From positions 26,325,667 through 26,389,666 of the forward strand of contig OX424568.1 of NCBI GenBank assembly GCA_949152475.1: DNA of 64,000 bases, written 5' to 3'. The translations under genes and the position numbers were made by a program. The notes beneath the pieces were generated by a model. The model did not search any database. It saw nothing but the letters and a program-made list of their open reading frames with translations, and was not told where the DNA came from. The first letter of the stretch is position 1, and every line of letters begins with the position of its first letter. Below, one piece after another: positions 11,870 to 64,000 of the stretch. This DNA is from Terebella lapidaria (Eukaryota; Annelida; Polychaeta; Terebellida; Terebellidae).

Positions 11870-12232
11870 AGTGGTGTTCTACCTGTAACCAAAGCAATGA
11901 CTGGTTGAGTGAGGAAGGTAACTGAATTGTAATAAGCGAACCATTGCGTGGACAGTACGCACAGTGCTTAACATGATAAAGGTACATGAAGCTATGAAGT
12001 TATCTGTTCGAGAATCTAACCTCTGTTTACCTATGCGATGTGTATTGCCGAAAAACCGGAATCCGACTAGCTGATTGATTCTGTCTGCAAATGTCACCAC
12101 ACATTATCCTGATGTGTTTCCACACTGTCTGAATCCCTGGTACGTTTTTTTTAGAATGCCCAGTGTCTTGCACTCAATCTTTTATTCAAAGCACGTAATC
12201 CAGATTGCAAAGATGATATGTAAGGATGTTTC

Positions 12233-12513
12233 ATCCTGCGTCATCTCGGCCGGCTGCGCCTGATATTGCGGACCGTTATGTCAGCCAAACCACTCTACTG
12301 CCCAAGCAGGATGCGGGATCCACAGAGACCAGAGTCGTCAGTCGACAGCCGAGACGAGGCACAGAAAGCTGCCACACGTCATTGTTGTTACCTTCGCCTG
12401 GACGTTTTACAGGCAGTGGAGGATAATTGCCAGGGAAGAGGGTCAGACTGGGTGCTTCACACATTGCAGTTGTTGATCAATACACACGTACGTGACGGGT
12501 TCTCTTAAAAAGA
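12233..12513 (-). promoter_or_regulatory. GC-rich upstream block, candidate first exon or promoter of paralogue B
   Basis: Counterpart of 9160-9440, identical as far as I can read, including the donor-like GGTAAC. It lies at the same distance upstream of the paralogue B start codon. Confidence 0.35.
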
Positions 12514-12789
12514 TTACAGCTGCCTTGCCTGATGAATAAATTATACGTACGACCCGTGATGTTCTACGCCCTTGTAGCATCGACTCACAACCCTAGCCAC
12601 CTGACTTTACAATGCATGCACTCCCAAAAGTATATTTACATTCTCTGGCTCATTTCGAATTCGGTTTGACACTGACAGACGAGTCTTGGTATTCGGGCTG
12701 ATAGTTATGTACTGATTTACATCACTATCAATTTTTAAAAAATATATAATTGTGATATTTGTATGACATCTTGCGGGCTTTCCAATTGA

Positions 12790-13025
12790 TATCGACGTAT
12801 GCAATTTAACACCAGAATGTGTCAACTTTGAACATGAGAAACAATAACCAGTAATTGAGTTGCTTAAAGTGGCAAAATCAGTTTTGGGTTTTCCGTGTGA
12901 AGGTGTATCCATAGCTGTCTCCATTGCAGCTGTACAATGCAAAGTTTTCAATACACACTCGGCTTCGTCCAAATTGACATTGAAAATCTGATTTTAAAAT
13001 AGTTCCGCACAGAATGGGTCCCATG
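12790..13025 (-). repeat. Dispersed repeat family R1, copy 4 (inverted)
   Basis: Duplicate of R1 copy 3 created by the tandem duplication. It differs from that copy by a single substitution near 13008. Confidence 0.55.
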
Positions 13026-17910: not shown

Positions 17911-17942
17911 CATACATGCCCCGAAGTTTATGTTGACATTAG

Positions 17943-18344
17943 TGTTACTGCGACTTCCAGTTATTTATCTTCTAAGTGTGAGGATGTGCAGTTATCTACG
18001 TTAACACGAATGTCAACACGAGACACGGGAGTTTGCACGGGAGAACAAAAGCGTTTATTCACCTTGACAGCTCAGTTGTCACAGTTCCGGTTACATTGTA
18101 AATATTCCGTTCAGGTAAAGTAAACATGTGTACATCAATCCACGATTTCATTTACTCTGTTACTCCGTAAAAACTCTTTGATCTCAACAAATCTGATAAA
18201 CTGCTAGAAAATCCATCGCTCAATAGCCACCGGAAGTTAAAATCTACAACAACACCATGGTAACGAAAAGCTGACTTGCGAGTCATTCGCCAGATGGCGC
18301 CAGCTGACGGACTACCTATAAAAATTCCCGCCACTGCGACAACA
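17943..18344 (-). repeat. BEL/Pao 3' LTR (402 bp)
   Basis: On the minus strand it begins TGTTGTCGCAGTGG and ends GCAGTAACA. It matches the other LTR (26619-27020) at 400 of 402 positions by eye. A purine-rich run (TTTTGGGGAGCC on the minus strand) lies directly upstream, as expected for a polypurine tract. Confidence 0.93.
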
Positions 18345-18584
18345 TGGCTCCCCAAAATTAGGTTACTAATTTTCCAAACCACAAAACATATGAAATCTGC
18401 ATGACAAAAATATGAGTAACAAAGTCTGAGCTAGCGCTGAATCGAAATATCATACATCTCCATTTCGACAAACAACCACGATATAAACATGAATATTATC
18501 TACACACTTCTAACTTCGGCAAACAGTAGACATCTAGCTCCTCGACGGGGATCAACCCAACTAAATCCGAGATACAGCATACAT

Positions 18585-24500: not shown

Positions 24501-24925
24501 CGTTTCATCAGGCTGTGGTTCTCTTCCTCAATCATCTCAACTTTGGATCGGTAATCATGATCGATGTTGACAACCTCGAGCTCATCTAAACATCTCTGCA
24601 ATGTGTCCATAGATGTTGAGACTTCATCTCTTCCAGCTTTCAGAACTGCAGGACTAATATTCTCAGACAACAGCTCTTCCATTTTTGCAGCACGTTTCCT
24701 CCAGGATGACATGGCAGCACGCAGATGATGTTCAAGGCGCTCCTTGCGGTATTCTAATCCTCGCTCAGACAACACCTTTGTTCTGGTAGACATCATGGAT
24801 TCCGTCTTATGGTGGTCACCCAAATCAGTCTCCAAGTTCTCTGCTTCTTCACTACCATCAACACCTTTGTCTTGTCCTATAGCTGCGGACATCTTTGCCT
24901 GCTCTTCTTCCTTTTGAGACATCAT
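18585..24925 (-). pseudogene. BEL/Pao gag-pol coding region (fossil)
   Basis: Parts in order: a long coiled-coil, charged gag N-terminus; a gag core of the DUF1759 type; cysteine/histidine knuckles; an aspartic protease of the A17 type; a reverse transcriptase with the YVDD box and an upstream DCTAKH block; an RNase H region; an integrase with an HHCC-type zinc-binding segment and a DDE core; and a C-terminal DUF5641-like segment. This order (protease, RT, RNase H, integrase) is that of BEL/Pao polyproteins. No envelope gene is seen. The region is largely open, with about one interruption, in keeping with the young LTRs. Confidence 0.92.
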
Positions 24926-25990
24926 GACATCTGAGTCTGCAAGCCAGTCTTTCCAGAAACCAATACTGAAGCTGTCGGACTACTAGACAAACTCGATTGA
25001 AAATCAATATAAACCCACAAACAACCGAGCAGTTATCTGGAATAGCTATCGAGCCACAAACTAGACACCAAATCAATCAATATCAGACCATGGAACAACA
25101 ATACACACAATTTCAAAAATAGTACAAGATACCAGGCAAAGACACAAACAAAAAACAAAATGCAAATCAGATTCCACACCAGAGACTCAAAGCTCCAACA
25201 ATGATCTACACACCAGCAATGCCAGGAAAATAAAACCAAATATCCAGCGGGGAACTGCTCACCAGGCAATGCAAGAAAGATGAAGTCAAATATCACCAGA
25301 GTTGATCAACAAATCCTTCCTACACACAAGGAATATAGGCACTTACCAATGTGTACTTACTACATGTAACTCACAGACCATGAACATGTAGTATTTCATG
25401 CATGAAATCAACTACCATAATCACCTTTGTCAATTACCATGAACACCATGAACACATGAAAACATGAACATCACATAACATACAAAGGCGTGCAGTAATC
25501 ATTTGCTAGCAGAATTAAATCTGAACCAGTGTCTGAACACACAACTAGCCTACTCAAATGTATTCACATACCATACAACACAAATATTTAATTAAAGCAC
25601 ACAGCTGGTAGTGATGAAATTCTACACAGGTGCAGACAAAGTATTTGAGGTAAAAAACAATAACATACAAATTCTAGTACACTAAAATATCTGCACACTT
25701 CAAAGCATTTACTATGTGAAAGTACTACTGTTTACTTCACTGGCTAATACACATATCACAATGATATCATACAATCCACTATTAAACTCAATGCATACAC
25801 TCAAAATATCTAGACACAATTTCAATACATATATAAGTCACCAAAAATTAATCAAATGCCAGTCAGCATACACTTCACTAAACTGTATCAATACTTTCTG
25901 GTACGATACAAATTCAATACAAAATTTTATCAAATCCTATGCATGAACACATCAAAAATACATCAAGCATAATAAAATGATCATCAATGT

Positions 25991-26213
25991 CTTCAAGGGC
26001 TTGAGGTCTGTCCTGATCGGGGACGGGGAACGCAACATCAGCACAGCTGGAGGGCAGCTGCAGGTCGGCGACAGCAACGCTCAATTGACACTCAGCGACG
26101 CTCAATCAAAGTCTTCGAGTACTTGAGGTCTGTCTTGATCCGGAAAGGGGGACGCAACATCAGCACAGCTGGCGGGCAGCTGCAGGTCGGCGACAGCGAC
26201 GCTCAATTGACGA
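25991..26213 (-). repeat. Tandem repeat in the BEL/Pao leader
   Basis: Two copies about 120 bp apart sharing CGCAACATCAGCACAGCTGG and CAGCTGCAGGTCGGCGACAG. They are GC-rich compared with the surrounding leader. Repeated leader blocks are common in LTR elements; no function can be read from the sequence. Confidence 0.75.
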
Positions 26214-26618
26214 CAACCACTAATCGTCCGGATCACGGCACACAGGTAGATGAACACAGCCACAGGCGGGTATAGCACAAGCAGGTGGGTACCGTAGACA
26301 TCAATGATACCCTCACCTCTCTAGCAGAGCGCATGTACAGTTCTAGTCTCCAGGTCCAAGCATAGGAACTGCAATCTTCTGGGGGTAGGTGACAAATCTC
26401 CTTCGACCCAATCCAAACACAACAGGGTTTAGTAGTCATGCACATTTGACAGCTGTACAGTAGTCGAACTGCACTGTAATCTTCTGATACTGTTCTGCAC
26501 AATAGTATACGGCCGCTCACAGAATTCGGCCGCCTGGCGCCAAACCACACTGCGACACTTTCAATCCGAGTTCACTCGTTCGTCACGTCGACATCAGTGT
26601 CAACAAAAGAGTTTTTAC

Positions 26619-27020
26619 TGTTACTGCGACTTCCAGTTATTTATCTTCTAAGTGTGAGGATGTGCAGTTATCTACGGTAACACGAATGTCAACACGAGAC
26701 ACGGGAGTTTGCACGGGAGAACAAAAGCGTTTATTCACCTTGACAGCTCAGTTGTCACAGTTCCGGTTACATTGTAAATATTCCGTTCAGGTAAAGTAAA
26801 CATGTGTACATCAATCCACGATTTCATTTATTCTGTTACTCCGTAAAAACTCTTTGATCTCAACAAATCTGATAAACTGCTAGAAAATCCATCGCTCAAT
26901 AGCCACCGGAAGTTAAAATCTACAACAACACCATGGTAACGAAAAGCTGACTTGCGAGTCATTCGCCAGATGGCGCCAGCTGACGGACTACCTATAAAAA
27001 TTCCCGCCACTGCGACAACA
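26619..27020 (-). repeat. BEL/Pao 5' LTR (402 bp)
   Basis: Partner of 17943-18344, with about two differences. On the minus strand a TATA-like TTTTATAGG lies near the start of the LTR, and the LTR ends in CA next to the leader. Confidence 0.93.
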
Positions 27021-28193: not shown

Positions 28194-29402
28194 TCAAGGG
28201 TCGTTCTCGCCTGGATCACTCTCCTGGGCAGGTACGTCAATCGTGATGGTCTCGCTCTCCGGGTCCCTGAATGACGTTCTCCGCGTGTTCTGCTTGGTGC
28301 CGGAGTTGGGCGAGAGAGTTGACTCCTTCCTCGCCTCGGCTGGTGGTGGAGTCTCCGTGGGCAAGGGTGGCGTCATGCTCTGGATGAAGAAGACGGGCGA
28401 CGGCGGGACCGTGTCGCTGGCGACTGTCTCGCTCGGGACGCTGAGAGATGTTGTACTGGGGAGCACACCTGACGGGAACATGAAGCCTTGCATGGGGATC
28501 CATTCCTGCCCTTGGACGGCTCCTCCCGTAGGGTCGCTGATCGTACGAGCCACTGGAACGAAACACACGCTAGGGCGCGGGCGTGCACTGGACGGGTCAG
28601 AGCCACTGACGGATGGTGCAGTCTCCAGGGTGGCCCCTGCGGATGATACACTGGGTCGTGTCCTGTTGGCGGCGTTGAAAAAGCTAGGCAGTTGGAGGTA
28701 GGAACTCTTTCGTCTGGAGGGCCGGCGTGAGTTGGCAGCGCTCTCTGACTGATCAGATCTTGCTCCGAAGATGAGGGACTGAGTTTCAGCCAGTTCTGTT
28801 GAGCTGTGAGACCCGTCACTAATGACAACTGGTGTGAAAGCCTGAACTGAAGACGATGATAGCCCCTCAACATCGCTCAGGATTATGGTAGGATTTCTCG
28901 CTCCAAAGTGGTTCATTCTCGGCTTGGTATAGCAATGGGCATATAAGCAATGGATGACGAAGTAAACGACCATCACACTGAAGGCGCCTATGAGGAAAGG
29001 CGGCACCAGCCAGTATTTGCCGTCTCGTTCATAAGGGTCGTCATAACGGTCCCGACCTTGGTCATTCCCTCCCCCTGTGACGTCACCGCCGCCTCCTCTG
29101 ATCCTAGGCACGTGACTCTGTCTTTGCGTAACATTTGTCAGACGACTATTACTATTGAAGTTCTCATAAAACGACACGTCATCCTGGTAGCGCTTCTGAT
29201 CCGTGGGGCTGGGGTAGAAGAGGCATTTGTTTTCACCAACGACGGTGTTCCCGATTGTGATGCACCTCGGCGCTTCAGACGAATCACCGTCGTTTTCATC
29301 GGTCCCGTCCTCTCCAGTGCTTCCAGTTTCTCTTCCCGAGACATTTATCAGCTGCAGGTGCAGACTTAGCAGCAAATAAATTAAGGTGCTTCGCAGTTCC
29401 AT
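28194..29402 (-). CDS. Single-pass membrane protein, unknown family, paralogue C
   Basis: A 402-residue uninterrupted frame on the same strand as paralogues A and B. Residues 1-23 form a signal peptide with a leucine-rich core. The ectodomain (24-129) is acidic and Gly-rich, with cysteines at 47 and 60 and a sequon at N90. Residues 130-155 form the transmembrane helix in the block KYWLVPPFLIGAFSV, identical to A and B over its first 15 residues. The tail keeps the family blocks RRPSRRKSSYLQLPSFF, VCFVPVAR and EWIPMQGFMFP in the same order and ends in a different acidic sequence. Outside these blocks the match is weak, so the split from A/B is old. The coding DNA is GC-rich compared with A/B and its flanks. 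Function unknown; the conserved cytoplasmic blocks look like docking or phosphorylation sites (basic RRxSRRKSS), which is inference. Confidence 0.85.
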   Translation of the reverse strand: MELRSTLIYLLLSLHLQLINVSGRETGSTGEDGTDENDGDSSEAPRCITIGNTVVGENKCLFYPSPTDQKRYQDDVSFYENFNSNSRLTNVTQRQSHVPRIRGGGGDVTGGGNDQGRDRYDDPYERDGKYWLVPPFLIGAFSVMVVYFVIHCLYAHCYTKPRMNHFGARNPTIILSDVEGLSSSSVQAFTPVVISDGSHSSTELAETQSLIFGARSDQSESAANSRRPSRRKSSYLQLPSFFNAANRTRPSVSSAGATLETAPSVSGSDPSSARPRPSVCFVPVARTISDPTGGAVQGQEWIPMQGFMFPSGVLPSTTSLSVPSETVASDTVPPSPVFFIQSMTPPLPTETPPPAEARKESTLSPNSGTKQNTRRTSFRDPESETITIDVPAQESDPGENDP

Positions 29403-29706
29403 TATGTTGTGCGTACCGTTAATTACACTACGTTGAAGCTCCTAATGCCAAAGGATTTGTCCGTGTTCGGTTTTGTTGTTAACAGTAATTAACAACAAAC
29501 CATCTGTCAGTTGCGCAGCCTGATTGTCAGTCTTTGTCGTTATACACGAATTTATGCAAATCCATTAAGCGTTGTCCATTGCAGTCTGCTGCTCACACAC
29601 TGCAAAGCAAAGATTTGTGTGAATGAAACTGTGTTTATTTAGTTCAATTATGCATTGGACCTACTGATAACTGTATATAGCATATGTGTATTGTAGGAAG
29701 CCACAT

Positions 29707-39725: not shown

Positions 39726-40919
39726 GTTTTTCCCTACTATGATAAAGGGAGATACACACATCTCGAAAACACAAACAAAAGTCAACTCTAGATGACCAGA
39801 GGTAGTAAAAAGACGCAACTCTTGGTTGCATAGGGTTAAAGGACGTCGGATTCAAGTCACCAATGAAAGGCTCTAACCTGATCCCCTACAAATTTACGGC
39901 GTATCTGCAAACATGTGCTCCACAGCAGTCTACGTTCTCCATAAGACCCAGGTTACAAGCCAGAAATATGGTGAAAAATGACGGGGGCCAGTCTGGAACT
40001 AGAACATCAGTTCCGTCGATTCAAACAAAACGCCACTTGCACTGTATCATCGAGGTGTTTTCCATATTTAATTGCATGAATTAGAAGTGTTATCAAACAG
40101 TTTTTAAAGAAGTATTTTTTCATTAAATGCTCTCTTCTTATCATCATCGTGCCAAATTTCTGCACTTCCGTCAAACTAAATAAAAACCATAAAAATTTAA
40201 AACAAAAAAAAACTGAAAAAAAAAGTTTGTTGAAAAATAACTTACTATGAAGTGACTGATTCCTGTTTCTGACCAACGTGCGTAAAAATGTCTCTAGATT
40301 ATTTTGTACCTGCAGCAATGTACAAGATACAGAATGAACACATGAACTAATCTCATTGGAACGAAAGTTACAACCCAGACAACATATTCACATAAAATAA
40401 CAATAAACTGTAAATATTTTCACCGATTCCGTGCATTTCCTGCAAGATTTTCTTTAGATCTATAAGTCATCCAAGTGCCACCAGTTTTGTCAAATCCGAT
40501 TCGAAAATGTATCCCATGGATACCATCATTTTGAATGTCCACCTAGGCAAACACTGTACTGGGACACAACCCACGGGAGTTCCCTGACAAAATATCCTCA
40601 TAAAAGATTCAGGTCTACATCAATATTTTCCCACCTGTGTTCCCTAAAAACCACACTTGTTTCCAATGAGCGGAATCTATTTACAGACTAGAGAGACGTC
40701 TCCAAGTATCCCTACCCATATGGGAAAAGCTTCACGACAGATATCCTGTAATGAAATGCCAAAAAAACCTGTGACATAGATATATGCCCAATACCTATGG
40801 GAAAAAATACATTTGGTGCAGTGAATAAAACCCTCTATAACAAATATAATAAAAATACAAAAATGTAAATATAGCGATTTTCTAAATCTGTGGGATGACA
40901 TTCTAGACTTTGCAATGTC
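39726..40919. other. Intergenic stretch left of the large TIR transposon
   Basis: AT-rich, with an A-rich block near 40190-40235 and the fourth R4 copy. No coding potential recognised. The last five bases before the transposon (to 40924) are its target duplication. Confidence 0.45.
40470..40760 (+). repeat. Dispersed repeat family R4, copy 4
   Basis: Shares ACACAACCCACGGGAGTT, CTTGTTTCCAATGAGCGG and ACGACAGATATCCTGTAATG with the other copies. It ends about 160 bases before the TIR transposon. Confidence 0.6.
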
Positions 40920-40924
40920 ATATT

Positions 40925-41480
40925 CACAGTCGTCAACGTGCGCACATGATTCCTGTAGCGGAGTTACAGGAAGCCTGCAAAAAGCAATAACATTGGCTCA
41001 GGGAGTTGATGGTAAGTGAGTATTTTTGGTTAGAAACACATGCCAAACGACGTTTCAAGCAAAGGGGGCTTAGCATTAGACTAACATATTGATCTCCTTT
41101 TGCCTGGCGATTTCTTTTGTTGTTGACACCTTCGATATTATTAACTATAAGCACATGAAGTGAGATTATTCCTCAATTATCGTCCGTTTGCCCCTTTGTC
41201 TGCATGTTATCACCATATATTGGAACTTCTGTCCACTGCTAATACTATATCGAGGTAGATTGGTTAACAATTGGTCAAATTCAACAGTTACTGGGGGGTG
41301 ACACTCGGCTGTTTGTGTTTGTCAAACAATTGTTTATCGTAGCACACACGAGATATGTGCTGCATGATTCACGTAACAGGCGCTACAGGATTCACGTAAC
41401 AGGCGCTTCAGTGTTCAAGTAACACCAGATGTAAAATTGCCCCCAAAATCTATCTTTTCACATAAATTACGGCAAAAAGA
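40925..41480 (+). repeat. Left terminal inverted repeat (556 bp) of the YqaJ transposon
   Basis: Begins CACAGTCGTCAACGTG. Reverse complement of 49110-49665; I found no difference on reading both. The tip can fold: TTCCTGTA and TACAGGAA are separated by seven bases. Towards the inner end the motif GATTCACGTAACAGGCGCT occurs twice in tandem (period about 24), followed by a weaker third TGTTCAAGTAACACC. Confidence 0.95.
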
Positions 41481-41539
41481 TGAAAACATACGAAGGTTAA
41501 TGTTTTTTGCATTGTACATTTCCAGTGTGAGCATGCAGG

Positions 41540-42439
41540 ATGCCGAAGAAAAGGCAAAACGTTTACCGTGCGCTGGAAACGAGCATGCACGGATTATCTA
41601 GTGAAGATGAGATTGAACCTGGCGTTAGTATGGGCGTTAGAACCACTGGGGGTGGTCGGAGCTTGCTGGCAGCAGAAACCACTAAGTCAGGCGGGAGCTT
41701 GCTGACTACAAAAACAATTGTAGCAGGCCGGAGCTTGTTGGCTGTAGAAACAACAAAGGCAGGCCAGAACACCGTCTACCAGGGGCTGAGTACGAAGGGC
41801 CAAATATACCACTGCCCTGCTGTAGGATGTCGGTTTACAGCAAAATATTCGAGCTCATTGCGGCTGCATAAATTGCGTAAACACAAAGAAAAACAAGTGA
41901 TATGTCCATCTTGTCCACGCACATTTTCCGTGAAAGCAGATATGAAGCAACATTTTAAAGCTAAACACGGACCTAAACATGTGTGCATGTGTGAGCACTG
42001 CGGCAAACAGTTTTCCACAGCGAGAGGGTTACAGAATCACAAAGTACTCCGACACAGTGAAGGGGATAGGAAAACAGCGAACTGTCCAACATGTAACAAG
42101 GTATTTGTATCGGTAACTCGTCTACGTGATCACATCGCCGGTCACCAAAAGAAGAAGTGTCACCAGTGTGACATCTGCAAGAGGACATTCGTATATGAAC
42201 AAAATTTGAAAATGCACAAGAAACAGAAACACAGCCCCGCTAAACTGTACACGTGTGCCACGTGCGACTTGAAGTTCTGTTCTAAGCGAGAACTACGAAT
42301 GCATGTATCAGGAAAACATTCTAAGAAGAAACACAGATGTGACCTCTGTGATAAAGAGTACAGTTGGCCGCAAAGCCTGCTGCGCCACAAGCAAAGAAAA
42401 CATGGCAAGATCATGGACACGAACATGACTGGCCATTAG
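41540..42439 (+). CDS. Seven-finger C2H2 zinc-finger protein of the TIR transposon
   Basis: A 299-residue single-exon frame starting 60 bases inside the left TIR. Residues 36-75 contain three imperfect repeats of the type GRSLLAxETTKxG. Seven C2H2 fingers follow at about 92-115, 122-143, 151-172, 182-202, 210-231, 239-260 and 267-288, each with intact cysteines and histidines. Linkers are irregular, not TGEKP-like, so this is not a KRAB-type array. It converges on the transposase gene across about 1 kb. Its likely role is sequence-specific DNA binding, perhaps to the subterminal repeats of the element or as a captured host regulator; both are inference. The ATG at 41540 is the first in frame after the TIR. 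Confidence 0.88.
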   Translation: MPKKRQNVYRALETSMHGLSSEDEIEPGVSMGVRTTGGGRSLLAAETTKSGGSLLTTKTIVAGRSLLAVETTKAGQNTVYQGLSTKGQIYHCPAVGCRFTAKYSSSLRLHKLRKHKEKQVICPSCPRTFSVKADMKQHFKAKHGPKHVCMCEHCGKQFSTARGLQNHKVLRHSEGDRKTANCPTCNKVFVSVTRLRDHIAGHQKKKCHQCDICKRTFVYEQNLKMHKKQKHSPAKLYTCATCDLKFCSKRELRMHVSGKHSKKKHRCDLCDKEYSWPQSLLRHKQRKHGKIMDTNMTGH

Positions 42440-43470
42440 TAGCCAAATTGACTACTGTGACCACACTTACAGGTTTAAACAAGGTTTGTAGTGTCACATA
42501 TAATGTTACTTTACATCAATTTTTATAATAATTTTATGCTTTTTGTATCGGTGTTTCCCAAACTGTGCATATTGTGTGGATGGATTTTGTCCATGTTAAG
42601 TTACATGAATGTGATATTGTTTGGTACCAACAACAATTATCGTCTTTGAGTGGTTATGAGGAAAGCTAATTTGTCATATTATATCGTTAGTCCATTACAA
42701 ACATGGTCAATTTTAATGATTTGTAATCAGTAGTATGTTTATTTTCTCGACATTGCCTGTGTGAAGATGTGTGTTCTATTCTCAAACACTGTGGTATTAG
42801 ACTCATGAGAAAAAAAATATTAGCATTTCCAGTATTATTGAGAAAATTTATACTTCCAAGTAAAATGTGTTTTTTTTCTTGTGTCTTGCACAGACAAAAA
42901 GATTACTGGTTTCTTGTCTTGGTTTCTGTCGCAAATATCAAGACGTGTATATGACTTGCAGTAACCATTAATCCCTACTCATGTATCATGCATTTTGTTA
43001 TATTCTTAATCATCAACCAGAAATTGTGGATTTAATTTTTTTGATGTGTTGTAGCTGAATAAGCCATCTTATGTAATTAGCAGATTTGTAATTCTAATAC
43101 TAGCAGTAAGTTACATATACATGTGGTTCAGTTATTGTTTTGCTTCTATGTCTATGTTCATGTGTCATTGTTTTGTTTGTGTAATTGTGCAAAGTGCATA
43201 TATGTATTCTTTGAAATTAAATCATACATGTTAGATATGTTATACAATGCATTTCAGGACGTTTTTCATTTATCCATTTGTTTTGGGTTTTTTCTACACA
43301 TTTTATTGTAACAGTAATCATTATTCCAGTTGTTTTGAGTTCTAGTCATCTGAGCATCACATACATGTACTGTGAAATTAAATGCTCATCCAAAAGTTAT
43401 TTATTGTTCATCATTTTGTACACAGAACAGAGAGTATTGGATCACATCCATATGTGTATGAGTCATGTCG
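42440..43470. other. Spacer between the two convergent transposon genes
   Basis: AT- and T-rich non-coding sequence that must hold the 3' ends of both transcripts. Short plus-strand frames here are not supported by composition or similarity. Confidence 0.5.
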
Positions 43471-46400
43471 CTACTCAAATTCATCAGGCAGGAATATTCC
43501 AAGTCTCTTGTGCTTTAAGATTCTAGATTCATTCCGTTTAAAATACAAGTCTCTGATTGGAAGTGATCCTCTTCCAGGGGCGTCAGGTCCCTGCACATCG
43601 CCTCGTTTCCTCTTTGATTTCCCTCTGACTCTCGAAGACTCGTCAAAGACATGGTTCCTACATAATTCCAAAAATTGTATAATAAGAACAGAAATACATG
43701 ATATGGGGCTTGATACACATTTAGTCCATCAATGAACCAGGGTTTAAGAATGATACATACCTTATTCGTATAGCAGTGGCGCCTTTTGGGTCAGACCCAC
43801 TCCATTCTTCCAATGGTGGAGGGGATGTCTCCATGTCATCCACTTCATGTTCTGGATACATTTTCTTTTCTGACGTATTCATGTAGAAGCCCCTGTGCAG
43901 TGCATAAAAAACAGACAAGAGTTGATACATGAACATTTGCTTCTCTCAGAGAAGCTCGCAACTATCACAAACAACATTTAAACGTTAACATATCCAGATC
44001 AAGTGTATGTACAATCAGTAATATAAAACTGATTCCTCGTGATGTACGTATGGTAGAAGTGAACCAAATCTTACCTTGAAGGGTTCATCTTCATTGCAAG
44101 GAGTTCACACGCTATCGATAATGCTGGTTTCACCTCACTTGGTTTCAATATACCGGATCCTGCGGAATGCAAGTCTTGGAACCCCCCAAAGAAATTTTCC
44201 GCATCTAGGCTCCCTACTGAGCGTGCATTGAACTTGTGCCCTGGAATGAAATAGTAGAGTTGTATTCGACGCTCAATTCCCGTCAAGAGCCCCTCATACT
44301 CCACTCGCGGGATGCCCTTCACATATTGCCCAGGCGGGGGGAATTTTGCCCAGTCAACACCAGACAATAGCCATCTCCGAAATTCCAGTAGCTTGTGAAT
44401 TCTTTCTGAAGCTGGGATACCTGGACTGTCAACTGCTTCGTGCATTCCTCTGATCAGTCTACAAAATTCGGCTTCTGCATGGTCGCCATTAGCATGCATG
44501 ACTTCTTCCACGTCTTCGCAGAATGTCGTCAAAGCAAAGGCACTGGACTGTTTGTCAATCAAGTCCTCTACCATAGGTCTGCTTAGGCTTGTTGAGTTGT
44601 CCTCATTCTGGGCGATTTTGTGCCATGCATCTTTTCTTATGCCAGCACTCGGCAAACCGTCCTTGCAGATTTTAGTTCTGAAATTTAAAGTTTGAAATAG
44701 CTATAAATCTGCATCAAATTTACTAGGGGTACATTCACTACATTGCTACTTGTACTGGGACAATATAAGCATCATAGGCATTATTTGTTACATACACTAC
44801 CTCATATTCGTGAACTGGTGGTGGAAATCTAGGATGAAGAAGTGATAGTTATGTAAGGTCGGTAACCATTCTGGTTGAGAGAACCACTCAATTTGCACAT
44901 CGCCATCTTCTAGTTGGATTCTTATCTGGTCCTGGAAAGGAGCATTCTTCTTCCATGTTTCCAATCGGGTAGACCATATACACATGCTGTACAAGATGTT
45001 CAACTTTTCTTTTGTGAGCTTTTTTAGGAATGTTTTCGTTATCAGCTCCTGAAGACTCATATCAGAATGGCATGCAACCTTTTCACGCTGTTTCTTTTGT
45101 AGTACAGTTCCATCACCACAAAGTGTGGACAGTAAGTTGCATAGCTGGAGTTTCGTCCAAGATTTTGAACATTTGATTCCATTAGCTTTGATTTCGCCAA
45201 TGACTGGGTCTATCATAGCCTTCAGCTCCGTTGCTTGAAATGAATCTGAAGCCTGCTTAGCACTCTGGAGATGTCTCTTCAGAGATTGACCTGATGTTTG
45301 TTGCCAAAGATGTTTCCGGTGTGATGGAGCTTTCGACTGCAGCTCTTGCGCCATCATATCAAAATGACTTTCATTAAGTCTGAAAGATGACCCTTGTTCA
45401 GAAGGTGCCGTTTCTCTCTGGCTGTTGCTTGGGGTTTCTGACAAAGATGGCTCTTGTTCTGAAGTAGCTGCTTCCACCTGACTGTTGGTCAGGGTTTCTG
45501 CCACTTGCAATGCATCACCCAGCACAAACTGGTAATCACTGAATATGTGTCCATGTCCGAATTCAAAAACAGGTTGAATTTTGTGTTGCAATTCTAACTC
45601 CACCTCGGTGTTAACTTGCCTAATAAGGTTCTCATCTTCGAGGTTTAGCTCAATGTTGCCTAGTTCTGGAGTGATGAGGTCATCTACAACTGTCTCAAGA
45701 CCATCGTCAGCGATGCTGTTGTCATCGAAGTTTGAAGTGTCTTTTCTGTTCGCTTGTGTGATGTAGAGACCCAGAATTGTTTGAACCAAAGGGTCACTCA
45801 GAAAGTGTTGTGCATGCTTGTCATTGGGCCAGCTCCCTGGGTGGAGAATGTCTGTCCCATCGATCGTTGAACAGCAAATTTCAGTGCTTTGCTCGTGGAT
45901 GACATTGCCTCCTTCAATGGCATTGACGAGATCATCAATTTCTTTCTGCAGCTTAGATTTCTGCATCTTTTTCACCTCGGAGAACACATCCCTTTGAAGC
46001 TGCATAATGGTCAGTGGTTGGTCTTCACTGTCGCGAACACTACACTTTGCCCATTGTCCATCGGATGACGTGATAAGAGTACGTACCGCCGATTCCTCAA
46101 GACGTGTCAGAATTTCCAAATGCATTTTCCTGAAGGTGTCGGCTGGCAAACTGTAACTCTTCAGTGCATATGCAATAGGGACAGCATGAGGCGCCTCTGG
46201 TTTGAAATTCCTGTCCATGTCACTCGCCATCCATACCAGAATTTCACTGCACCGTTCTTTAACTCTTTGGTAAGCGTCTTCTATCACAATCTTTGCACTG
46301 ACATGGGCATCATGTAGCTCTTGTACTGTGATATTTTTGTGGTGCACATTTTCGGCAGTGTGCAAATTCAGAGGTGGGTGGTCATGCTGGTCACAGTTCC

Positions 46401-48923
46401 CGTGACTACAGGGATATGCACGAATCGAAGGTACTTCTGCAAGTAGCTCTACATTCCTCTCTACAAAACCTTTAAGTTTCTTCTTCAATTGATGGCTTCT
46501 GTCAGTCGAATGATGTGGACGTTTTGGAGTATGGGTCCCGTACACATCCCTAGCTTCTTCCATCAATTCATACCACAATGCTTCATCGAATGCAATGCGC
46601 AGAATACATGTTGACACAGGCGTCCAGCTGATGAAAAGCAAAGATTCAACTTCCAATACATACATTTCAGATAACACCTGTGTGACATATCGCACTGGCA
46701 GCTGATACTGGACATCAGTTGTGAATTTCTTGCCTGGAATAGGGCACTTGATTTCAACGGCAGATAGACACATGCTATATGTGTCAGTTCGTATGCTTCC
46801 ATCAGGACTGACCACCAACAACGTTTGTTCCTCATGTTCCACCTTGTAGCATCCTTCTTCAACAAACTTGGCTTTCGGGAAGAAAACGGGTAGTACTTTA
46901 CCAACGAGGGTTCCGACACCATTTATTTCATTCTCAATACCATGTTGTATATTTGACAATGAAGTGTCATCAAGCGGGACTGGTTGAATACTGAAGAGTT
47001 TCCTGTCAAAGTGCTGCTGCATTTTCTTCAAAGTGTCAAGACCGATAGCTTCATACATTGTACTGCCTGAAACAAATCAGCATAAAATGTGTGACATATA
47101 AATACATCTATACATACTATTGCCCAGAACAAATCAACACAGAATGGATCACATGTGAATATGCATACACCATATGTGCACGTGTTACTGTCACATTCTC
47201 ATTACCGACGACACTCATATATATGTACTTTGTGCAGAACTGTTCTTTTTTCAGAAAAAGTTACTGACATTAAATCGTACATGTATTACATAAATTTAAA
47301 GATGCAATATATCGATATGAGATCTAACGCACCAGTTATCTTGGCTTCACGCCTCAGCTTGGACCAGGATTCAGTTTTCTGCTTTATGAACCTGGGATCT
47401 GTGATCTCTTCACACTCTGACAAACATACGTAATTTCTTTGTATGTTGAGATTGACAAATGTTCCTTCCACATAATCTTGTGAACCTTGCATGACTGATA
47501 TGGCGTGCATCAGATTGTCCACAGTGTCAATTGCCGTTTTCAAGCATCGATCTATCTGGCATATAGCTGTTTCTAGAGCACTGATAGCGTATGACATATT
47601 CGAGGACCTCCAGTCTGCACCCACTTTGGCCCTGCACCGATCTCTGGCGACGACTTTGCCGACTCTTGCTTTTCTCAGTTCCATCATTCTCACTGACAAG
47701 AACTGAACAATCTTCAGTGATTTCTGGCACATATCTTCCTGCTCTGTTTCTGTGAGTTCATACACGTAAGTCTTGTAAGAAAGATTCTTCTGCAGGAAGG
47801 TCATCTGAATCGATATTAGATCAAGTTCCAGTTCCAGACGAGCGTGTTTCTCGCCTACACTAGGGGGCCCCTCGTGGCCGAATAAATCACATTCCGACTC
47901 CACTCCTGATCCACCCATGTTCAGTTTCTTACCTGCAATACACAGATATTTCGAATAATGATGAAGAGGAACATAATACAATGTAATGTGTCGTATTTTT
48001 GGTTCGTAAAGTGTTATGCTATGTGCATAATGTACACAAACATTTGGAAACATATCAGGGATTCTTACCATCTACACAGACTTTGTGTGTTTTGTTATGT
48101 GCTGATTTGGCGATTATGTCAACCATAGGCTGTAATATCCCTGGCTGGATCTCATCAATGGCCAGTACCTTTTCTTCTTTGTTAAGTACTTCTTTGGATG
48201 GGACAACGAAATTGATCTTCGCCTCCATTGGTCGATAGTCACCACGCTGACACTGTTTCTCTATCAGCTGGCCCATATTCTTGAATCCCGACATAAATCG
48301 GATGAATTTACCATGAAAAAGAAGTCGTCCTGTTTCCCAATACTTCTTTACCACAGTGTTGTACCGCATAGAACTTGATGTATCAAGTGACAAAAAATTT
48401 ACGAGATCTATGAAGAGTAGGTAGCATATATTTTCCATCGGGAATTTTCCATTTTCGATCATTTTGAACAAATTAACCCAACTTTGGAGCGTAGAATTTC
48501 AACAACCGTGGGTAACAAATTCATCATGACACGCAGATCATCACCATCTTCACTTTGTCCTTCTTCCTGGTCCCCCACGGCGACATCGTCGCCAAATAGT
48601 AGCTTCTTTTTCGCTATTCTGGTCTCAGTGCCTTCGGTAATCAGTGCTTTTTTAGCAGCTGGGCTCTTACCAGGAGTTATCGCCTCATCGCTGACTGTCA
48701 AAGACGAATCGCCATCAAAGTTTATTTGGTAGTCCTTTGTCAAGAGCTTCGCTCCTGTCACAGGAAATGTTTTGGACAAAAGTATCCTTTTCCCAGTGTG
48801 TTCACAGACCGCAGATACACGAACTTTTATAAGTTGATCAGCGTGGCACTGGATGCAGTGGTGTACAATATCAGCCGTTTGCTCTGATGAGAAACTGCAG
48901 TACCCACACAAGTGACCATCCAT
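43471..48923 (-). CDS. YqaJ-nuclease / DDE-like transposase, seven exons
   Basis: Exons on the minus strand: 48923 to about 48480, about 48480-48069, 47932-47333, 47066-44801, 44677-44075, 43892-43761 and 43657-43471. The last five introns are 103-266 bp, all GT-AG with matching phases, and give one frame of about 1,550 codons. An acceptor (TTTTGCAG) precedes the first ATG, so a 5'-UTR intron is likely. Blocks in order: a C2HC-like zinc motif (CGYC...HHC); FLSLDTSSSMRYN and LLFHGKFIRFMSG; VLAIDEIQPG; VCVDGKKLNMG; a YqaJ-type PD-(D/E)XK nuclease whose N-terminal block WSKLRREAKITG spans an intron, followed by VSPDGS, VEIKCP and YVTQVLSEMY; VPIAYALKSYSLPADTF and ITSSDGQW; and lastly SLDAENFFGGFQ. 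I read the D in AIDEI, the D in SSDGQW and the E in LDAENFF as candidate DDE residues. Exons 1 and 2 meet in different frames near 48480 with no intron of normal size (only a 35-bp GT-AG fits), so a one-base shift or a sequence error is possible. Confidence 0.85.
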
Positions 48924-49109
48924 ATTGATTATCTGAAGGGTGTTTGCTGCAAAACAAATAAAAACAAAACAATAAGCCCGTAAGATAGGTCAGGCTAACA
49001 CAGTATTAGGCTATTATCACTGAGGTATGATTATTCCATATATTCAGTTTGTATACAAAGCACAAAAATATTATATCGACCCAGTTTTAAATTATTTTTT
49101 AAAAAAAAT

Positions 49110-49665
49110 TCTTTTTGCCGTAATTTATGTGAAAAGATAGATTTTGGGGGCAATTTTACATCTGGTGTTACTTGAACACTGAAGCGCCTGTTACGTGAAT
49201 CCTGTAGCGCCTGTTACGTGAATCATGCAGCACATATCTCGTGTGTGCTACGATAAACAATTGTTTGACAAACACAAACAGCCGAGTGTCACCCCCCAGT
49301 AACTGTTGAATTTGACCAATTGTTAACCAATCTACCTCGATATAGTATTAGCAGTGGACAGAAGTTCCAATATATGGTGATAACATGCAGACAAAGGGGC
49401 AAACGGACGATAATTGAGGAATAATCTCACTTCATGTGCTTATAGTTAATAATATCGAAGGTGTCAACAACAAAAGAAATCGCCAGGCAAAAGGAGATCA
49501 ATATGTTAGTCTAATGCTAAGCCCCCTTTGCTTGAAACGTCGTTTGGCATGTGTTTCTAACCAAAAATACTCACTTACCATCAACTCCCTGAGCCAATGT
49601 TATTGCTTTTTGCAGGCTTCCTGTAACTCCGCTACAGGAATCATGTGCGCACGTTGACGACTGTG
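49110..49665 (-). repeat. Right terminal inverted repeat (556 bp) of the YqaJ transposon
   Basis: Exact-looking reverse complement of 40925-41480, ending CTGTG before the ATATT target duplication. Identical 73-codon frames in the two TIRs are simply a result of the DNA identity. The interval 48924-49109 holds the transposase 5' leader. Confidence 0.95.
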
Positions 49666-49670
49666 ATATT

Positions 49671-52600
49671 GGTTTATACCAAACAAAAGCGAATTACAAC
49701 AATACAAAACATGCTCACCCTGAAAGTCTGAGGGGTTTCAAAACCTGGTGACATGGGAAGGTCAGGCAAGGTCGCCTCGCCTGTAAGTTAACGAAATTAC
49801 CTCCTACTGTTAACAAATTATGCCAATAATGTATTTAACAACTGTGTTTGTACACTACTACTGAATTATAACCGTATCAATGGAAATATACTGTACTTGT
49901 GAACTACATTTAGCCTAGTACCAAAAGTAACCGACCACGTGCAACACGTGCGCCATGTCATACTGACATCAAGTTGCCTTGTAGAAAATACTAATTAATG
50001 AATGTATATAAATCTGGAAGACATAAATGAAATGTTGATGCACAAACTTGGATACAGTAAGAATTACTTACACACGGTGAAACGCTCCGTTCAAATACTC
50101 GCGGCAATAGCGGTGTTTCAGTTTTAACGTCTAAAAGTACGTGTGTTATACACGATATCGCTTAACCCAAAAGTACGTATACGGCTCGCATATCACAGGG
50201 GACCGTATCAAAACTCAAAAGTCGCATTTCAATCATGCAACGTGATTTCTTGACAGTAAGTTCGAACTAGCGACTTGACTGTAAGTAACCCTACTTTAAA
50301 ATGATTCGGTTCTTTCTTCACTGAGATTGCTTCTCGGGTAGCATTATTGGAAGCTCATTGGTTTCATACCATGTAAGATTTCAGTTCACATTTCGGCCGT
50401 TTCGTAGAAATGTTTTCACAAAAATATGACCATGTAATCTGTATGCATGTATAATCAGGAATGTGACACAAGTATGATATGGATGATGTCATCACAAAAT
50501 AATATAAAAATATAGTAGAATATTGATTGAAAACTGTAAAATAGCACTAATAGCGTAAACAAAGCATTACATAGTGTAGTTTCGTAAAGGTCGTTACACA
50601 CCGCGCTACCTTGACGCCTCATTTTATCGTAATGGAAATCCACACGAATGCCTCCCTATTTCATACATCATATTTCATACTATTTCATACTTCACGGTTG
50701 CAAAAAGGCCTATTTAGATATATTTTCTGTATAAAAATCAAATTAAACTTCTTCAAATTGCTCTTTTGAAATGCAAAAATAGTTCTGGTATTTGTCCGGG
50801 TATTGTTCCAGTTCTCGTACCAGCCTATATTCACCAAGGTGGTTAAGTGGATGGATACAAAGGACGATGTACAGAGCCCAAAATCGATGTCTTCTCGTAA
50901 CTCTATTGGCCTTCTTATCATCCTTTTTTTATCAGAAAATACTTTAAATAGCCTATGACCACGTCTTAAAGTTGCAAGAGGACGTACCTATTTTTTTTTA
51001 CCGACATGAGTTAAGTTCTAAACACGAACGTCAGCACTCGGTGTGTACAGAAAAAAATGGTGCCGTTTCTAAAATGACACGGCCGTCAAGAAACGTTGAC
51101 ATAGCCGTAACCGGTCGCGCGGCTTCAGTGTGTAACCGCCTTAAGTTTCCAAACTATAGCGATTGCACATACATGTATCCGTGATCAATTACTTGCTTAT
51201 ATCTTGTGCCGCAGATCAGTGTCGCACAAGGAAATGTCAGAGGATATTTTTGTATAGGAAATATCGTCAATGTTCAGCTGTCGATACCGTTGTTCCAAGG
51301 GTGTTGTATAACGTGCTGGATTCTATAATCATTAATATTGTCTTCAATTTTGTTACATGGCGCAGCGTTTGGGGCATACGGAACATCCACACTGATTTTC
51401 AGCGAAATACATTCCAGGATGGCAGAGCTATAACCCCTAAAAATGTACCAGTATACCAGTAATCGGCTAGTAAGGCATATTATGTTGACTGATAAGCAAC
51501 CATTGTAATTTGCAATGATGAAATATTGACGATACAGGAATGATCCGAAATGACTTTACATATGAATAAGGAAATTGCATCACGAATAAAAACTTCATTC
51601 TTCATTCAACCCCTGTTTTCTCCCACAAGTTGTTAACCTCCCATAGTTTTAGTTGAACACATTACACTGTTGCTGTGCAAGGCAGAAGGCAAAATTCCAC
51701 GATGGCTGCCCGAGTGTCCCATACGTGAGTGTCGGTACATATAATACACGCTTTGAATGCGATAATTTTGATACGACCCCCTGCTATATGCGAGCCTTAT
51801 AAGTACTTTTCGGTTAGGCGATAACGCCTATGACACGCCAATCTTTAGACGTTACAACTGAAACACCGCTAATAGGCCGAGACCGGGAGGTCCACGCGTG
51901 GCAACGTCTCGGTAAGGACTGACGCTGTGACAAGGCACAGCCGCCCCACCACGCTGCGTGTATTATGACGAATCACCGACAACACATTTAAACTGAATAC
52001 ACACAAAATGCGAATACACACTTCCCTGGGGAATGAAATGTCCCGACATTTAAACCCTAAAATGAAGACCTGAAAATAATAGAAAACATTAATTATGTAC
52101 CTGCAATGATGCTGAGCAATGCCGCGTCGACATTTTGATCCTTGTTCAACATACCATCAGAAACTAGAGTTGTCAAATACTTAGCAGCTGCATCCACTCC
52201 GGAGGTGTGCTCATTGTTTGCGACGCTACAAACTCATTACCTCTCGTCATAGCAGGCGGCTGTCTTTGACGACCAGAGCGCCTAGGAACTGGTACTGGCG
52301 GTGAAACTGGTACTTGAATTACCTCAGGTTCATGCTCCTCATCAGATGGCTCATCGTCCGACTCTGACACTTCAGGTGTTGCTTTTTTCCGGGGCACTAT
52401 TTGCGTAACAGTATATTCGTCCAGCTCACTTTCACTGGTACTTACCTTGTCATCATCATGGGTGATTTGTGGTGCATTTCCTTTGGGCGGAGTACGCTGA
52501 CTATCTCTGCTCCTACCTGTGATTGGAAGTTCCCCAATAGGCAACAGAAGATTTCTGTGCACGTTTCTTACCTTCCCCATTTTCCTTTTTGACCACAAAT

Positions 52601-52807: not shown

Positions 52808-55800
52808 CAATGACATGAGGTCAAAAGAGCCATAATGGAGCCACCAGCCACAGTTTAGCGACCCATATACTCTCTTCTCTCACAGACACAACAACGAGAA
52901 CATAAATTGGTTTTTCATGCAAACTACCATCGCTGTATCATCAATACAAGTCCTGCACAATGAACATGTACCAGCCCAGCCATCACCAAGATGTGCAACC
53001 AATTTCGAAAACCCGGCGGTAGTTTGATAGACCATAACAACATATATTTTAGGATGGTAAGGTCTATTCAGTACATTATGTATATGACTGGGAAAAAACC
53101 CCTTAGTTTCATAATAGTTCATTTTCACTGCGGTATAAATTGAAATTTATTATATATAGCTAGCTAACTCCTCTATGTTAATCACTATGATCACAATTTG
53201 GTTGTATTGCATATTACATACACATTCCCTCCCGATGTTTGTTAAATATTGTATGATATCATGTGTAGTTGAAACATATTATATTTGTACTTTCATCATC
53301 TGTTATATGGTGATAGTTCAGCTCAGTATGTACCACAGTTAATACGCCTGTTAATGTCACTGTGTCGTGTGATATTATCTGAAATGACACAACAATTATG
53401 TCAGAGCTTCTTAGCTTCTGACACTGGATAATACTTGATGTATGTATAGATTCCCAAAGAGCACCACAAATAAAATGCATGCAAATTCTGGGCTCTATGT
53501 TGGGTTTTCCCCAACAAACAAAGATAAACACACATGTCGCACTATATGTACCTCGTACTATTTGCATATTGTTGGTGGTTTAAACATACACATTTTTATG
53601 AAATGACATATATCCGCCAATAGTATGTCCCAATCATTCACAGCGGCCTCTTCTGCGTGGTCGTCATGAGTGATCAATTTGAGTATGTGTTCACACATGA
53701 ATGATAAATTACCTGCTCCTATCCCATTATTGACAAACCCATAAAGCTACAAGGACACCTGTGTTTTATGCCTACATCATCCATAATGCAGACTCGCACA
53801 TTCATACCAGTCACTATAGAAGTCATCACGTAGCTATCACCAGGAAAATATCAACGTCAGAAGATATACAAGGTTCGTGCGAGAACGAGGTGCAAGGTCT
53901 GATAAGAACCAAACTCTAATTTGCAGGTTTATGATGATTTGACAATGTTCACTGAATCGAAATATATTTATACTCCTCAACGTAATATAATAGAATGAGA
54001 ACTGAGAACAATATAGCACTTGACACGAATAGTCATGCAACTTTTCAGAGACTCCACTGTTGCACATAACATGAAATGAAACTTCGCCGTATTACCTCCT
54101 TAACTCTCTCTAATTGGCGGAGATTGCGTGAATCAGGACGCGTTCCACGACGTCAATAATTGTGCTATGGTACTTCCTGACACCGGCAGCAAAACATTGC
54201 CTAAAAACAAAATGATAATGGCAAATGACCATGCTTTACTACAGACAACCACGGATGGACAATTAAATGTCTTCTCCTGTGTGGATTCTTCTCCCTACAC
54301 AATACAGTCCTGTTGTGTGTACTTATATAAATATCAATGAACCATGTACTCTATTCTGGTCGAACGACCTAATATAATTACGTATTTTTGTTTTTTTGCG
54401 AAAAGAATTTGATCATACAGTTCAAATCGAATATCAGGGAATTTGAAGGGCTGAAACCTGATATTTTAACGTCTAGCAGAAGACAGTTCTCTTCCATTCT
54501 CAATTAACCACGACTGTCCATTCTCGAGAAATATGTAGCTATGAATCACAGCAAATGTGGCAATCGATCACAGCAAGTTAAAGGCAATACCAGTACATAC
54601 GCAAAGTAATATCATCGCAAATACACACGCAATGTTTCACTCCCTGCTACGCTGCCACGGAAATACGAATTGAATTCCCATGCAAACGACGTTTGAAGGG
54701 TGGAACCAAGCGATATTGCGAATGATTGCGTCTTCGCGTGATTTTATGCGGACACTATATTAGTAGCGCAAAGCATTGTCCTCTTCTGTTATCATGTCTA
54801 CAGAACACAGTATGTAGACAAGTATTCAATAGTTGAGGTTCTTAATAATTTGATTCTTGGTTATTTCAATTTTAGCAGAAAGGTTTGTTATACGGGTATT
54901 GAGCATTCACAAATGCGGGAGGACTGGGAATTATGTGACAATGTAAGTAACAATCTATTACCACCAATACAGTCAGATTTTGATGATGCCAATAACAAAC
55001 GTACATTGCAACATTTTGGAATAGAAACAAAGCCCGACCAAATAGTCGGTCATCAAGGGCAGACAGTGTGTTAAATGTAGTTGTTTCTACTGTACAACTG
55101 ATGGAATTAGTATACAACTGCCCAACAACCTATCAAAATAAGTTAGAAATCCGAAACAAACCCCATGGAATAGATATATGACAAGTACATAAGTACCTAA
55201 TCACGAGCCAGAAGGCTACTGAGTTGATGGTATCCTCGGGGACAGATTTAACGTCCGCCAGCAGTGACACCGACTCAGTGGTATGAATCTAAGTATCAAT
55301 CTATTACCACCAATACAGTCAGATTTTGATGATGTCAATATCAAACGTAAATTACAACATTTTGGAATAGAAACAAAGCCCGACCATATAGTTTATCAAA
55401 AGACAAACTGGCGTCATCAGGGGCAGACGGTGTGTTAAATGTAGTTGTTTCTACTGTACACCTGATGGGATTAGTATACAACTAATATGTTGTATGAGTG
55501 TTCTGATATTGAAGAGAACACTTCCTTCCATTCTTGTTGCGACCCAAAAAGAGAACATATTCACCGCACAGTCATCAACGATATTGTAACCGATAAAGGA
55601 GATCTCAGTCCTCCTAAGTGTTTTGGATATTCTCCCAGTTCTAAATCGATAAATGCCAACATTTTCGTGCACAAAATGGCAATCAGCCATCATTGTTATC
55701 GAAACCAATTAGGCAGCCAACAAATATGGATTTTTGTTTGATATTCCACAGATTTCGTTTCTGACATGTGGACTGACTGCAAAGTAGCTCATTTCCGTTC

Positions 55801-61240: not shown

Positions 61241-61518
61241 AGTCATAGTAGCAAGGTACCATTATATGGTTTTATTCCTGTTCAGATAAAGGCATTGTGG
61301 ACATTCGGTGATAAAAAAGATGTTCGCCTTAATTGGTAATTAATAACAGCGACATGTAATCGAGTATATTGAGCCAGTATTACAATTTCCTTCTCATGCC
61401 GATGAACAAAATAGCTTCGGCAGTTTCCGTAATCGTGACGTCAGTTGAGGCAAAATGTGCTTTGATGGCTGGCCAAAAACGTAAAATGCGTAATTTGGGC
61501 GGTCAGCTCAAAGATAGA

Positions 61519-64000
61519 AATGTAAGTATCATTCTATTACCACCAACAGTCAGATTTTGATGAAGCCAAAAACAAACGTAAAATAGAACATTTTGGAATA
61601 GAAACAAAGCCTGACCAAATAGTTAATCCAAAGACACACTGGCGTCATCAGGGGCAGACAGTGTGTTAAATGTAGTTGTTTCTACTGTACACCTGATGGA
61701 ATTAGTATACAACTGCCCAACAACCTATGGAAATAATTTAGAAATCTGAAACAAACCCCATGGAATAGATATATGACAAGTACATAAGTACCTAATCACA
61801 AGTTAGAAGGCTACTGAGTTGATGGTATCCTCGGGGACAGATTTAACGTCTGCCAGCAGTGACACCGACTCAGTGGTATGAATGTAAGTATCAATCTATT
61901 ACCACCAACAGTCCGATTTTGATGAAGACAAAGACAAACGTAAAATAGAACATTTTGGAATAGAAACAAAGCCCGACCAAATAGTTAATCCAAAGACACA
62001 CTGGCGTCATCAGGGGCAGACAGTGTGTTAAATGTAGTTGTTTCCACTGTACACCTGATGGAATTAGTATACAACTGCCCAACAACCTATGGAAATAATT
62101 TAGAAATCTGAAACAAACCCCATGGAATAGATATATGACAAGTACATAAGTACCTAATCACAAGCCAGAAAGCTACTGGGTTGATGGTATCCTCGGGGAC
62201 AGATTTAACGTCCGCCAGCAGTGACACCGACTCAGTGGTATGAATGTAAGTATCAATCTATTACCACCAACAGTCAGATTTTGATGAAGCCAAAAACAAA
62301 TGTAAAATAGAACATTTTGGAATAGAAACAAAGCCCGACCAAATAGTTAATCCAAAGACACACTGGCGTCATCAGGGGCAGACAGTGTGTTAAATGTAGT
62401 TGTTTCTACTGTACACCTGATGGATTTAGTATACAGCTGCCCAGCAACCTATGGAAATAATTTAGAAATCTGAAACAAACCCCATGGAATAGATATATGA
62501 CAAGTACATAAGTACCTAATCACAAGCCAGAAGGCTACTGAGTTGATGGTATCCTCGGGTACAGATTTAACGTCTGCCAGCAGTGACACCGACTCAGTGG
62601 TATGAATGTAAGTATCAATCTATTACCACCAACAGTCCGATTTTGATGAAGACAAAGACAAACGTAAAATAGAACATTTTGGAATAGAAACAAAGCCCGA
62701 CCAAATAGTTAATCCAAAGACACACTGGCGTCATCAGGGGCAGACAGTGTGTTAAATGTAGTTGTTTCCACTGTACACCTGATGGAATTAGTATACAACT
62801 GCCCAACAACCTATGGAAATAATTTAGAAATCTGAAACAAACCCCATGGAATAGATATATGACAAGTACATAAGTACCTAATCAGAAGCCAGAAGGCTAC
62901 TGAGTTGATGGTATCCTCGGGGACAGATTTAACGTCCGCCAGCAGTGACACCGACTCAGTGGTATGAATGTAAGTATCAATCTATTACCACCAACAGTCA
63001 GATTTTGATGAAGCCAAAAACAAACGTATAATAGAACATTTTGGAATAGAAACAAAGCCCGACCAAATAGTTAATCCAAAGACACACTGGCGTCATCAGG
63101 GGCAGACAGTGTGTTAAATGTAGTTGTTTCTACTGTACACCTGATGGAATTAGTATACAACTGCCCAACAACCTATGGAAATAATTTAGAAATCTGAAAC
63201 AAACCCCATGGAATAGATATATGACAAGTACATAAGTACCTAATCACAAGCCAGAAGGCTACTGAGTTGATGGTATCCTCGGGGACAGATTTAACGTCCG
63301 CCAGCAGTGACACCGACTCAGTGGTATGAATGTAAGTATCAATCTATTACCACCAACAGTCAGATTTTGATGAAGCCAAAAACAAACGTAAAATAGAACA
63401 TTTTGGAATAGAAACAAAGCCCGACCAAATAGTTAATCCAAAGACACACTGGCGTCATCAGGGGCAGACAGTGTTAAATGTAGTTGTTTCTACTGTACAC
63501 CTGATGGAATTAGTATACAACTGCCCAGCAACCTATGGAAATAATTTAGAAATCTGAAACAAACCCCATGGAATAGATATATGACAAGTACATAAGTACC
63601 TAATCACAAGCCAGAAGGCTACTGAGTTGATGGTATCCTCGGGGACAGATTTAACGTCCGCCAGCAGTGACACCGACTCAGTGGTATGAATGTAAGTATC
63701 AATCTATTACCACCAACAGTCAGATTTTGATGAAGCCAAAAACAAATGTAAAATAGAACATTTTGGAATAGAAACAAAGCCCGACCAAATAGTTAATCCA
63801 AAGACACACTGGCGTCATCAGGGGCAGACAGTGTGTTAAATGTAGTTGTTTCCACTGTACACCTGATGGAATTAGTATACAACTGCCCAACAACCTATGG
63901 AAATAATTTAGAAATCTGAAACAAACCCCATGGAATAGATATATGACAAGTACATAAGTACCTAATCACAAGCCAGAAAGCTACTGGGTTGATGGTATCC
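61519..64000 (+). repeat. 362-bp satellite array, seven monomers, running off the window
   Basis: Monomers start at 61519, 61881, 62243, 62605, 62967, 63329 and 63689, each with AATGTAAGTATC. Period is 362 except one of 360 that lacks two bases. Monomers at 61881 and 62605 share private variants (CAGTCCGATT and GACAAAGACAAACG), giving a 724-bp dimer over the first four. Later monomers are of the other type. Non-coding; the short frames in it are repeats of the same DNA. Confidence 0.95.

Follow-up and report, generated by a model that had tools for sequence, protein, structure and literature searches.

The stretch of Terebella lapidaria DNA studied here (the window: 64,000 nucleotides of contig OX424568.1, assembly GCA_949152475.1, forward-strand positions 26,325,667 to 26,389,666) carries a transposon of 8741 bp at positions 40925-49665, with the ends CACAG and CTGTG. 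This element is probably a P-element-related DNA transposon that moves by cut and paste. Within its transposase it encodes a lambda-exonuclease/YqaJ-type nuclease, and it also carries a convergent C2H2 zinc-finger gene. An earlier note, made from the sequence alone, had proposed a possibly undescribed superfamily. The distinct lineage is borne out, being set apart by its ends, its duplication length and its built-in nuclease, but it can be linked to a known group: in predicted fold, in matches to the Pfam family PF21787 and in profile comparison, the transposase core resembles that of P elements, and the transposase itself includes the nuclease.

A P-like transposase with an internal nuclease

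The spliced YqaJ-transposase gene (48922-43471, minus strand) and the zinc-finger gene are convergent, which confirms the arrangement of two genes, one with a YqaJ-type nuclease, that had been read from the sequence. Joined, the exons give one open frame, which begins past a 13-bp deletion and encodes 1393 amino acids from its first Met. The predicted coding features are as follows.

48069-48922, minus: exon 1, with an N-terminal C2H2-like finger and the first catalytic Asp (codon 48072-48070)
47333-47932, minus: exon 2, a helical region running into the nuclease domain
44801-47066, minus: exon 3, with most of the YqaJ nuclease, the RNase H strands, the second insertion and the DxxH motif
46747-46803, minus: YqaJ nuclease active site, PD-(D/E)XK type (Asp 46803-46801, Glu 46755-46753, Lys 46749-46747)
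46062-46060, minus: second catalytic Asp, in exon 3
44829-44818, minus: DxxH motif, in exon 3
44075-44677, minus: exon 4, with the P-like helical insertion and the last catalytic Glu (44199-44197)
43761-43892, minus: exon 5
43471-43657, minus: exon 6, with the stop codon (43473-43471)
41540-42439, plus: zinc-finger open reading frame (ORF) of 299 amino acids with several C2H2 fingers, a putative accessory protein

Homologues of the transposase were compared with Pfam at E values up to 1. The YqaJ family was matched by 24 of 27 homologues (best E, 3.8e-12), while the window exon itself scored 19.9 bits (E, 9.2e-4), under the Pfam cut-off of 22 bits. PF21787, which is of the P-element type, was matched by 11 of the 27 (best E, 1.4e-5), and one of four hits checked for bit score passes the cut-off. 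None of the 27, some of which are N-terminally incomplete, matched THAP, and none matched a hAT family, although a 5-bp duplication would fit hAT5. A profile comparison aligned the transposase core with the P element over 70 columns (E, 3.5e-6). For homologue P0009, the predicted fold of the core is a P-element-type RNase H fold with a helical insertion domain, and that of the nuclease domain is lambda-exonuclease. Fold prediction and profile together argue strongly for a relation to P elements.

The transposase alignment contains a DDE triad and a DxxH motif, and the YqaJ nuclease sits between the first and the second catalytic Asp of the P-like core. The active-site residues of the nuclease and of the DDE core are both conserved. 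Relative to a P-like control protein of the same genome, the core carries two large insertions. The frame is also found uninterrupted in the element that we assign to lineage IV, where a single ORF of 1388 amino acids spans the nuclease and the transposase core. A sequence search of the PDB with the family profile returned seven matches at E values up to 10, none of them a transposase: two SNU71 entries at 0.004, whose match is to an acidic stretch, then lambda exonuclease at 0.016 and weaker ones. Foldseek rows such as kinases were treated as noise, and a protein search with lineage VI added three more proteins, all nameless.

All six lineages, represented by eight elements, have a C2H2 match convergent with the YqaJ-transposase frame, and its relative position is the same throughout; zinc-finger matches between lineages have E values from 3.9e-12 to 4.3e-33.

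Ends, insertion sites and copies

The two terminal inverted repeats (TIRs) are identical at 556 of 556 positions, as claimed earlier, and the 557th paired base already lies in the flank. The features of the ends are listed below.

40920-40924, no strand: left target-site duplication, ATATT, from the paired flanks and empty sites
49666-49670, no strand: right target-site duplication, ATATT, from the paired flanks and empty sites
40925-41480, plus: left TIR, 556 bp, starting CACAGTCGTCAACG
49110-49665, minus: right TIR, 556 bp, ending CGTTGACGACTGTG
40925-41011, plus: putative promoter and 5' exon within the TIR, read from sequence only
41359-41424, plus, mirrored at 49166-49231: subterminal tandem repeat, a 23-bp unit present 2.9 times, TIR positions 435-500

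A splice-donor-like GTAAGT follows at 41012 in the TIR sequence, with a mirror copy near 49578, and the TIR may thus hold a promoter and a 5' exon. The 23-bp repeats are possible protein-binding sites; tandem repeats with units of 21 to 29 bp occur in the TIRs of the window, lineage IV and lineage VI elements.

The CACAG/CTGTG ends and the ATATT duplication are confirmed, and empty sites were found. A query of 94 bases, made by joining the two window flanks with one ATATT, gave 21 junction-spanning alignments elsewhere in the 762-Mb genome with 89 to 96% identity, and two more with 83% and 75%; both flanks of the window element itself were also among the matches. Fifteen of the 21 were as long as the query, and six differed by 1 to 4 bases. 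Letter by letter, a single 5-bp block stood at the junction in 20 places with at most 3 mismatches (ATACT in 18, ATATT in 1 and ATAAT in 1), whereas the reversed control gave 0 + 1. The element has therefore landed in a repeat, with a duplication of 5 bp.

The flanks, 40880-40924 and 49671-49720, are repeated sequence, of which six pairs of copies lie about 7.2 kb apart. This spacing resembles that of long terminal repeats (LTRs) and suggests an insertion into an LTR.

With up to 2 mismatches, the 22-base terminal sequence matched the genome 269 + 258 = 527 times and its reversed control 1 + 0 times, so these matches are not due to chance; if most are paired, they would amount to about 260 elements. 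When the genome was searched with exon 44074-44655, 38 matches came up, with identity down to 33%. The fetched copies, in our own grouping, form at least six lineages, each with CAC..GTG ends and a C2H2 gene convergent with the YqaJ-transposase gene.

Of 28 copies examined for target duplications, 25 had both ends and 3 had one end only; two other lineage V copies, L043 and L053, were left out of the count for want of resolved ends. The duplication is exactly 5 bp in 24 of the 25, across six lineages: ATATT, GTACA and TTAAC in the window family, ACAAA and ACATG in II, TGGTT in III, AATCT in IV, TGCAT in V, and ACTAA and AATGT in VI. In the exception, L015, the match is 6 letters long and adjoins a last base that is altered; apart from that altered end, all ends are CAC..GTG. 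The tabulation over copies that the earlier note had proposed gives no large group with another length. TIRs range from 80 to 654 bp. There is a weak palindromic target preference, with C before the duplication at 13 of 25 sites and G after it at 14 of 25.

The same genome provides a control, since P-like matches are abundant in it (at least 150 matches to PF21787). One P-like pair, L066 and L067, has an uninterrupted core, a length of about 3.85 kb, 99.8% identity and the ends CAAAGAGCTTATA. With equal ends, its duplications are 7 bp (GTTCAAC and GTACTAT); that of L067 can also be read as 8 bp, on the assumption of unequal ends. On the evidence of this one pair, the method therefore detects other duplication lengths. 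The P-like copies L058-L063 were without definable boundaries.

Two sister copies of similar length, L009 and L010, differ from the window copy by substitutions at 0.23% (20/8710) and 0.69% (59/8573) of positions. The corresponding counts are 70/8567 between L009 and L010, 97/8260 in lineage II and 29/10613 in lineage VI. The earlier note had called the element very young. We rejected TIR identity as a clock and took age from the divergence between copies, because the TIRs of DNA transposons are not copied from one template; that divergence (0.23 to 0.82%) does point to recent movement. As to the suggestion that the element may still be active, the transposase frame of the window copy is broken, a point absent from the earlier note, by the deletion of 13 bp near 48491 that are present in both sister copies, and L009 and L010 have frameshifting gaps of their own in the same gene. 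The window element would therefore be mobile only with an enzyme from another copy.

There is also a non-autonomous family of shorter elements, with TIRs that are about 87% identical to those of the window element. Among seven copies compared, six are 99.1 to 99.97% identical to each other, and the seventh (L022) is at about 94%. The 2.95-kb non-autonomous copy L011 (L011:200-3149) contains a nested element of 1116 bp with lineage-IV-like ends (81% to the lineage IV TIR) and an ATATT duplication, and the empty site of the nested element is present in L019 and L026 (one ATATT; 3 mismatches in 60).

Elsewhere in the window, an LTR-retrotransposon-like element at 17939-26914 has end repeats that are 99% identical and long ORFs at 18585-20192 and 20135-24979, which by eye we take to be gag-pol of the BEL/Pao kind. 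A tandem duplication of about 3.07 kb at 7392-12988 contains two near-identical ORFs of 389 amino acids (7645-8814 and 10709-11878), and a similar-looking ORF of 415 amino acids lies at 28194-29441. A tandem array with a unit of 360 to 362 bp occupies 61507-63976, with diverged copies at 54912-55575.

Proposed mechanism and its weak points

We propose that the DDE site would cut the transferred strands and join their 3' ends to the target at positions 5 bp apart. The internal nuclease would attack the non-transferred (5') strand, at the ends either of the transposon or of the donor, comparable to TnsA, which in Tn7 works beside the DDE enzyme TnsB. Alternatively, it might trim the 5' strand as a 5'-3' exonuclease, giving long 3' extensions in a P-type enzyme. 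The zinc-finger protein would bind the subterminal TIR repeats, and each of the two genes would take its promoter and 5' exon from one TIR.

Several points weigh against the P-related reading. The transposase exons are predictions picked from splice signals, the structure model is that of homologue P0009 rather than of the window protein, and the assignment of the first Asp to P-element D230 and of the last Glu to E531 is weak, coming from weak alignments and an overall structural match. The zinc-finger matches between lineages could in part reflect general C2H2 similarity. Both activities of the enzyme, transposition and nuclease, are predicted, and the role given to the nuclease is inferred by analogy.

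That role could be a different one even if the P placement is right. The nuclease might serve donor-gap repair, by resection for copying from the sister chromatid, instead of cleaving ends. Its lambda-exonuclease fold would suit this, as lambda exonuclease has a 5'-3' resecting role in phages, whereas its location within the core points to a job at the transposon end; we hold gap repair to be a plausible but lesser prospect. We would put forward with similar reserve that the lineage is a separate animal superfamily, in which one enzyme has P-type DDE and lambda-exonuclease-type sites that share strand cleavage, and whose 5-bp duplications and CAC ends are convergent with those of RAG/Transib.

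With a second conserved nuclease site in its catalytic core, such an enzyme allows point mutations to test for a division of labour. Furthermore, a P-type enzyme can go with 5-bp duplications and CAC ends, which one might take to indicate Transib/RAG ancestry; therefore, ends and duplication length alone assign no superfamily. Bivalve YqaJ genes have been counted as recombinases or endogenous viral elements (PMC10225492 and PMC7826175), and some of them may be this transposon.

Comparison with known systems

No account of a P-type transposase that contains a YqaJ nuclease or makes 5-bp duplications was found in the literature available, which did not cover Repbase; the combination is not described in the available parts of PMC9587614, PMC4482050, PMC7776569, PMC10045372, PMC12730594, PMC10225492, PMC7826175 and PMC4411706. 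Nor did the protein fall into a named superfamily with the same ends and duplication length, the nearest, P, having other duplication lengths.

The element shares with the P element and THAP9 the P-like RNase H fold, the DxxH motif and, judging from the control pair, CA..TG ends. These likenesses and the PF21787 matches would also fit a canonical member of the P superfamily with merely an unusual duplication length, which we consider unlikely. P elements duplicate 8 bp (PMC7776569), and the P-like control pair, whose core is uninterrupted, duplicates 7 bp. Here, in contrast, there are 5-bp duplications, long TIRs, a lambda-exonuclease in a core with two large insertions, a C2H2-like N terminus and a second, zinc-finger gene. 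Because the 7- to 8-bp duplication and the THAP domain were looked for and not found, we do not file the element as a canonical P element.

An origin from a Transib/RAG-type transposon that acquired a nuclease would account for the 5-bp duplication, the CAC ends and the two genes. CACAGTC is close to the heptamer of the recombination signal sequence, and Transib/RAG elements have CAC ends and two-gene forms; to our knowledge, no such nuclease domain occurs in them. They also share the 5-bp duplication (PMC4411706), and both traits are present in the element. However, Transib/RAG proteins seem to give a lower fold match to its enzyme and have another motif set: no CxxC or H(3-4)H column is conserved between the second Asp and the last Glu in 23 aligned rows (any CxxC in 5, any H(3-4)H in 9), where DxxH is found instead. 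We think this origin very improbable and, on present evidence, keep the lineage, with its constant 5-bp duplication, apart from Transib/RAG, as the earlier note did.

Equally improbable is KolobokE or another Kolobok lineage, which has a DxxH transposase of the same group and the same class of lambda-exonuclease-like nuclease, but by description places that nuclease downstream and has a TTAA target and RR..YY ends (PMC9587614), whereas 24 of the 25 copies with both ends have 5-bp duplications, of varied sequence, the ends are CA..TG, and the nuclease lies between the first and second Asp.

ISL2EU elements likewise encode a YqaJ exonuclease, on a separate ORF, and are described with AT duplications, GG ends and a DDE-HTH-THAP transposase of the PHIS kind (PMC4482050). 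Neither the 2-bp AT duplication nor GG ends occurred among the same 25 copies, and the separation from ISL2EU proposed earlier stands: in the Terebella element, one spliced frame spans both the nuclease and the transposase core.
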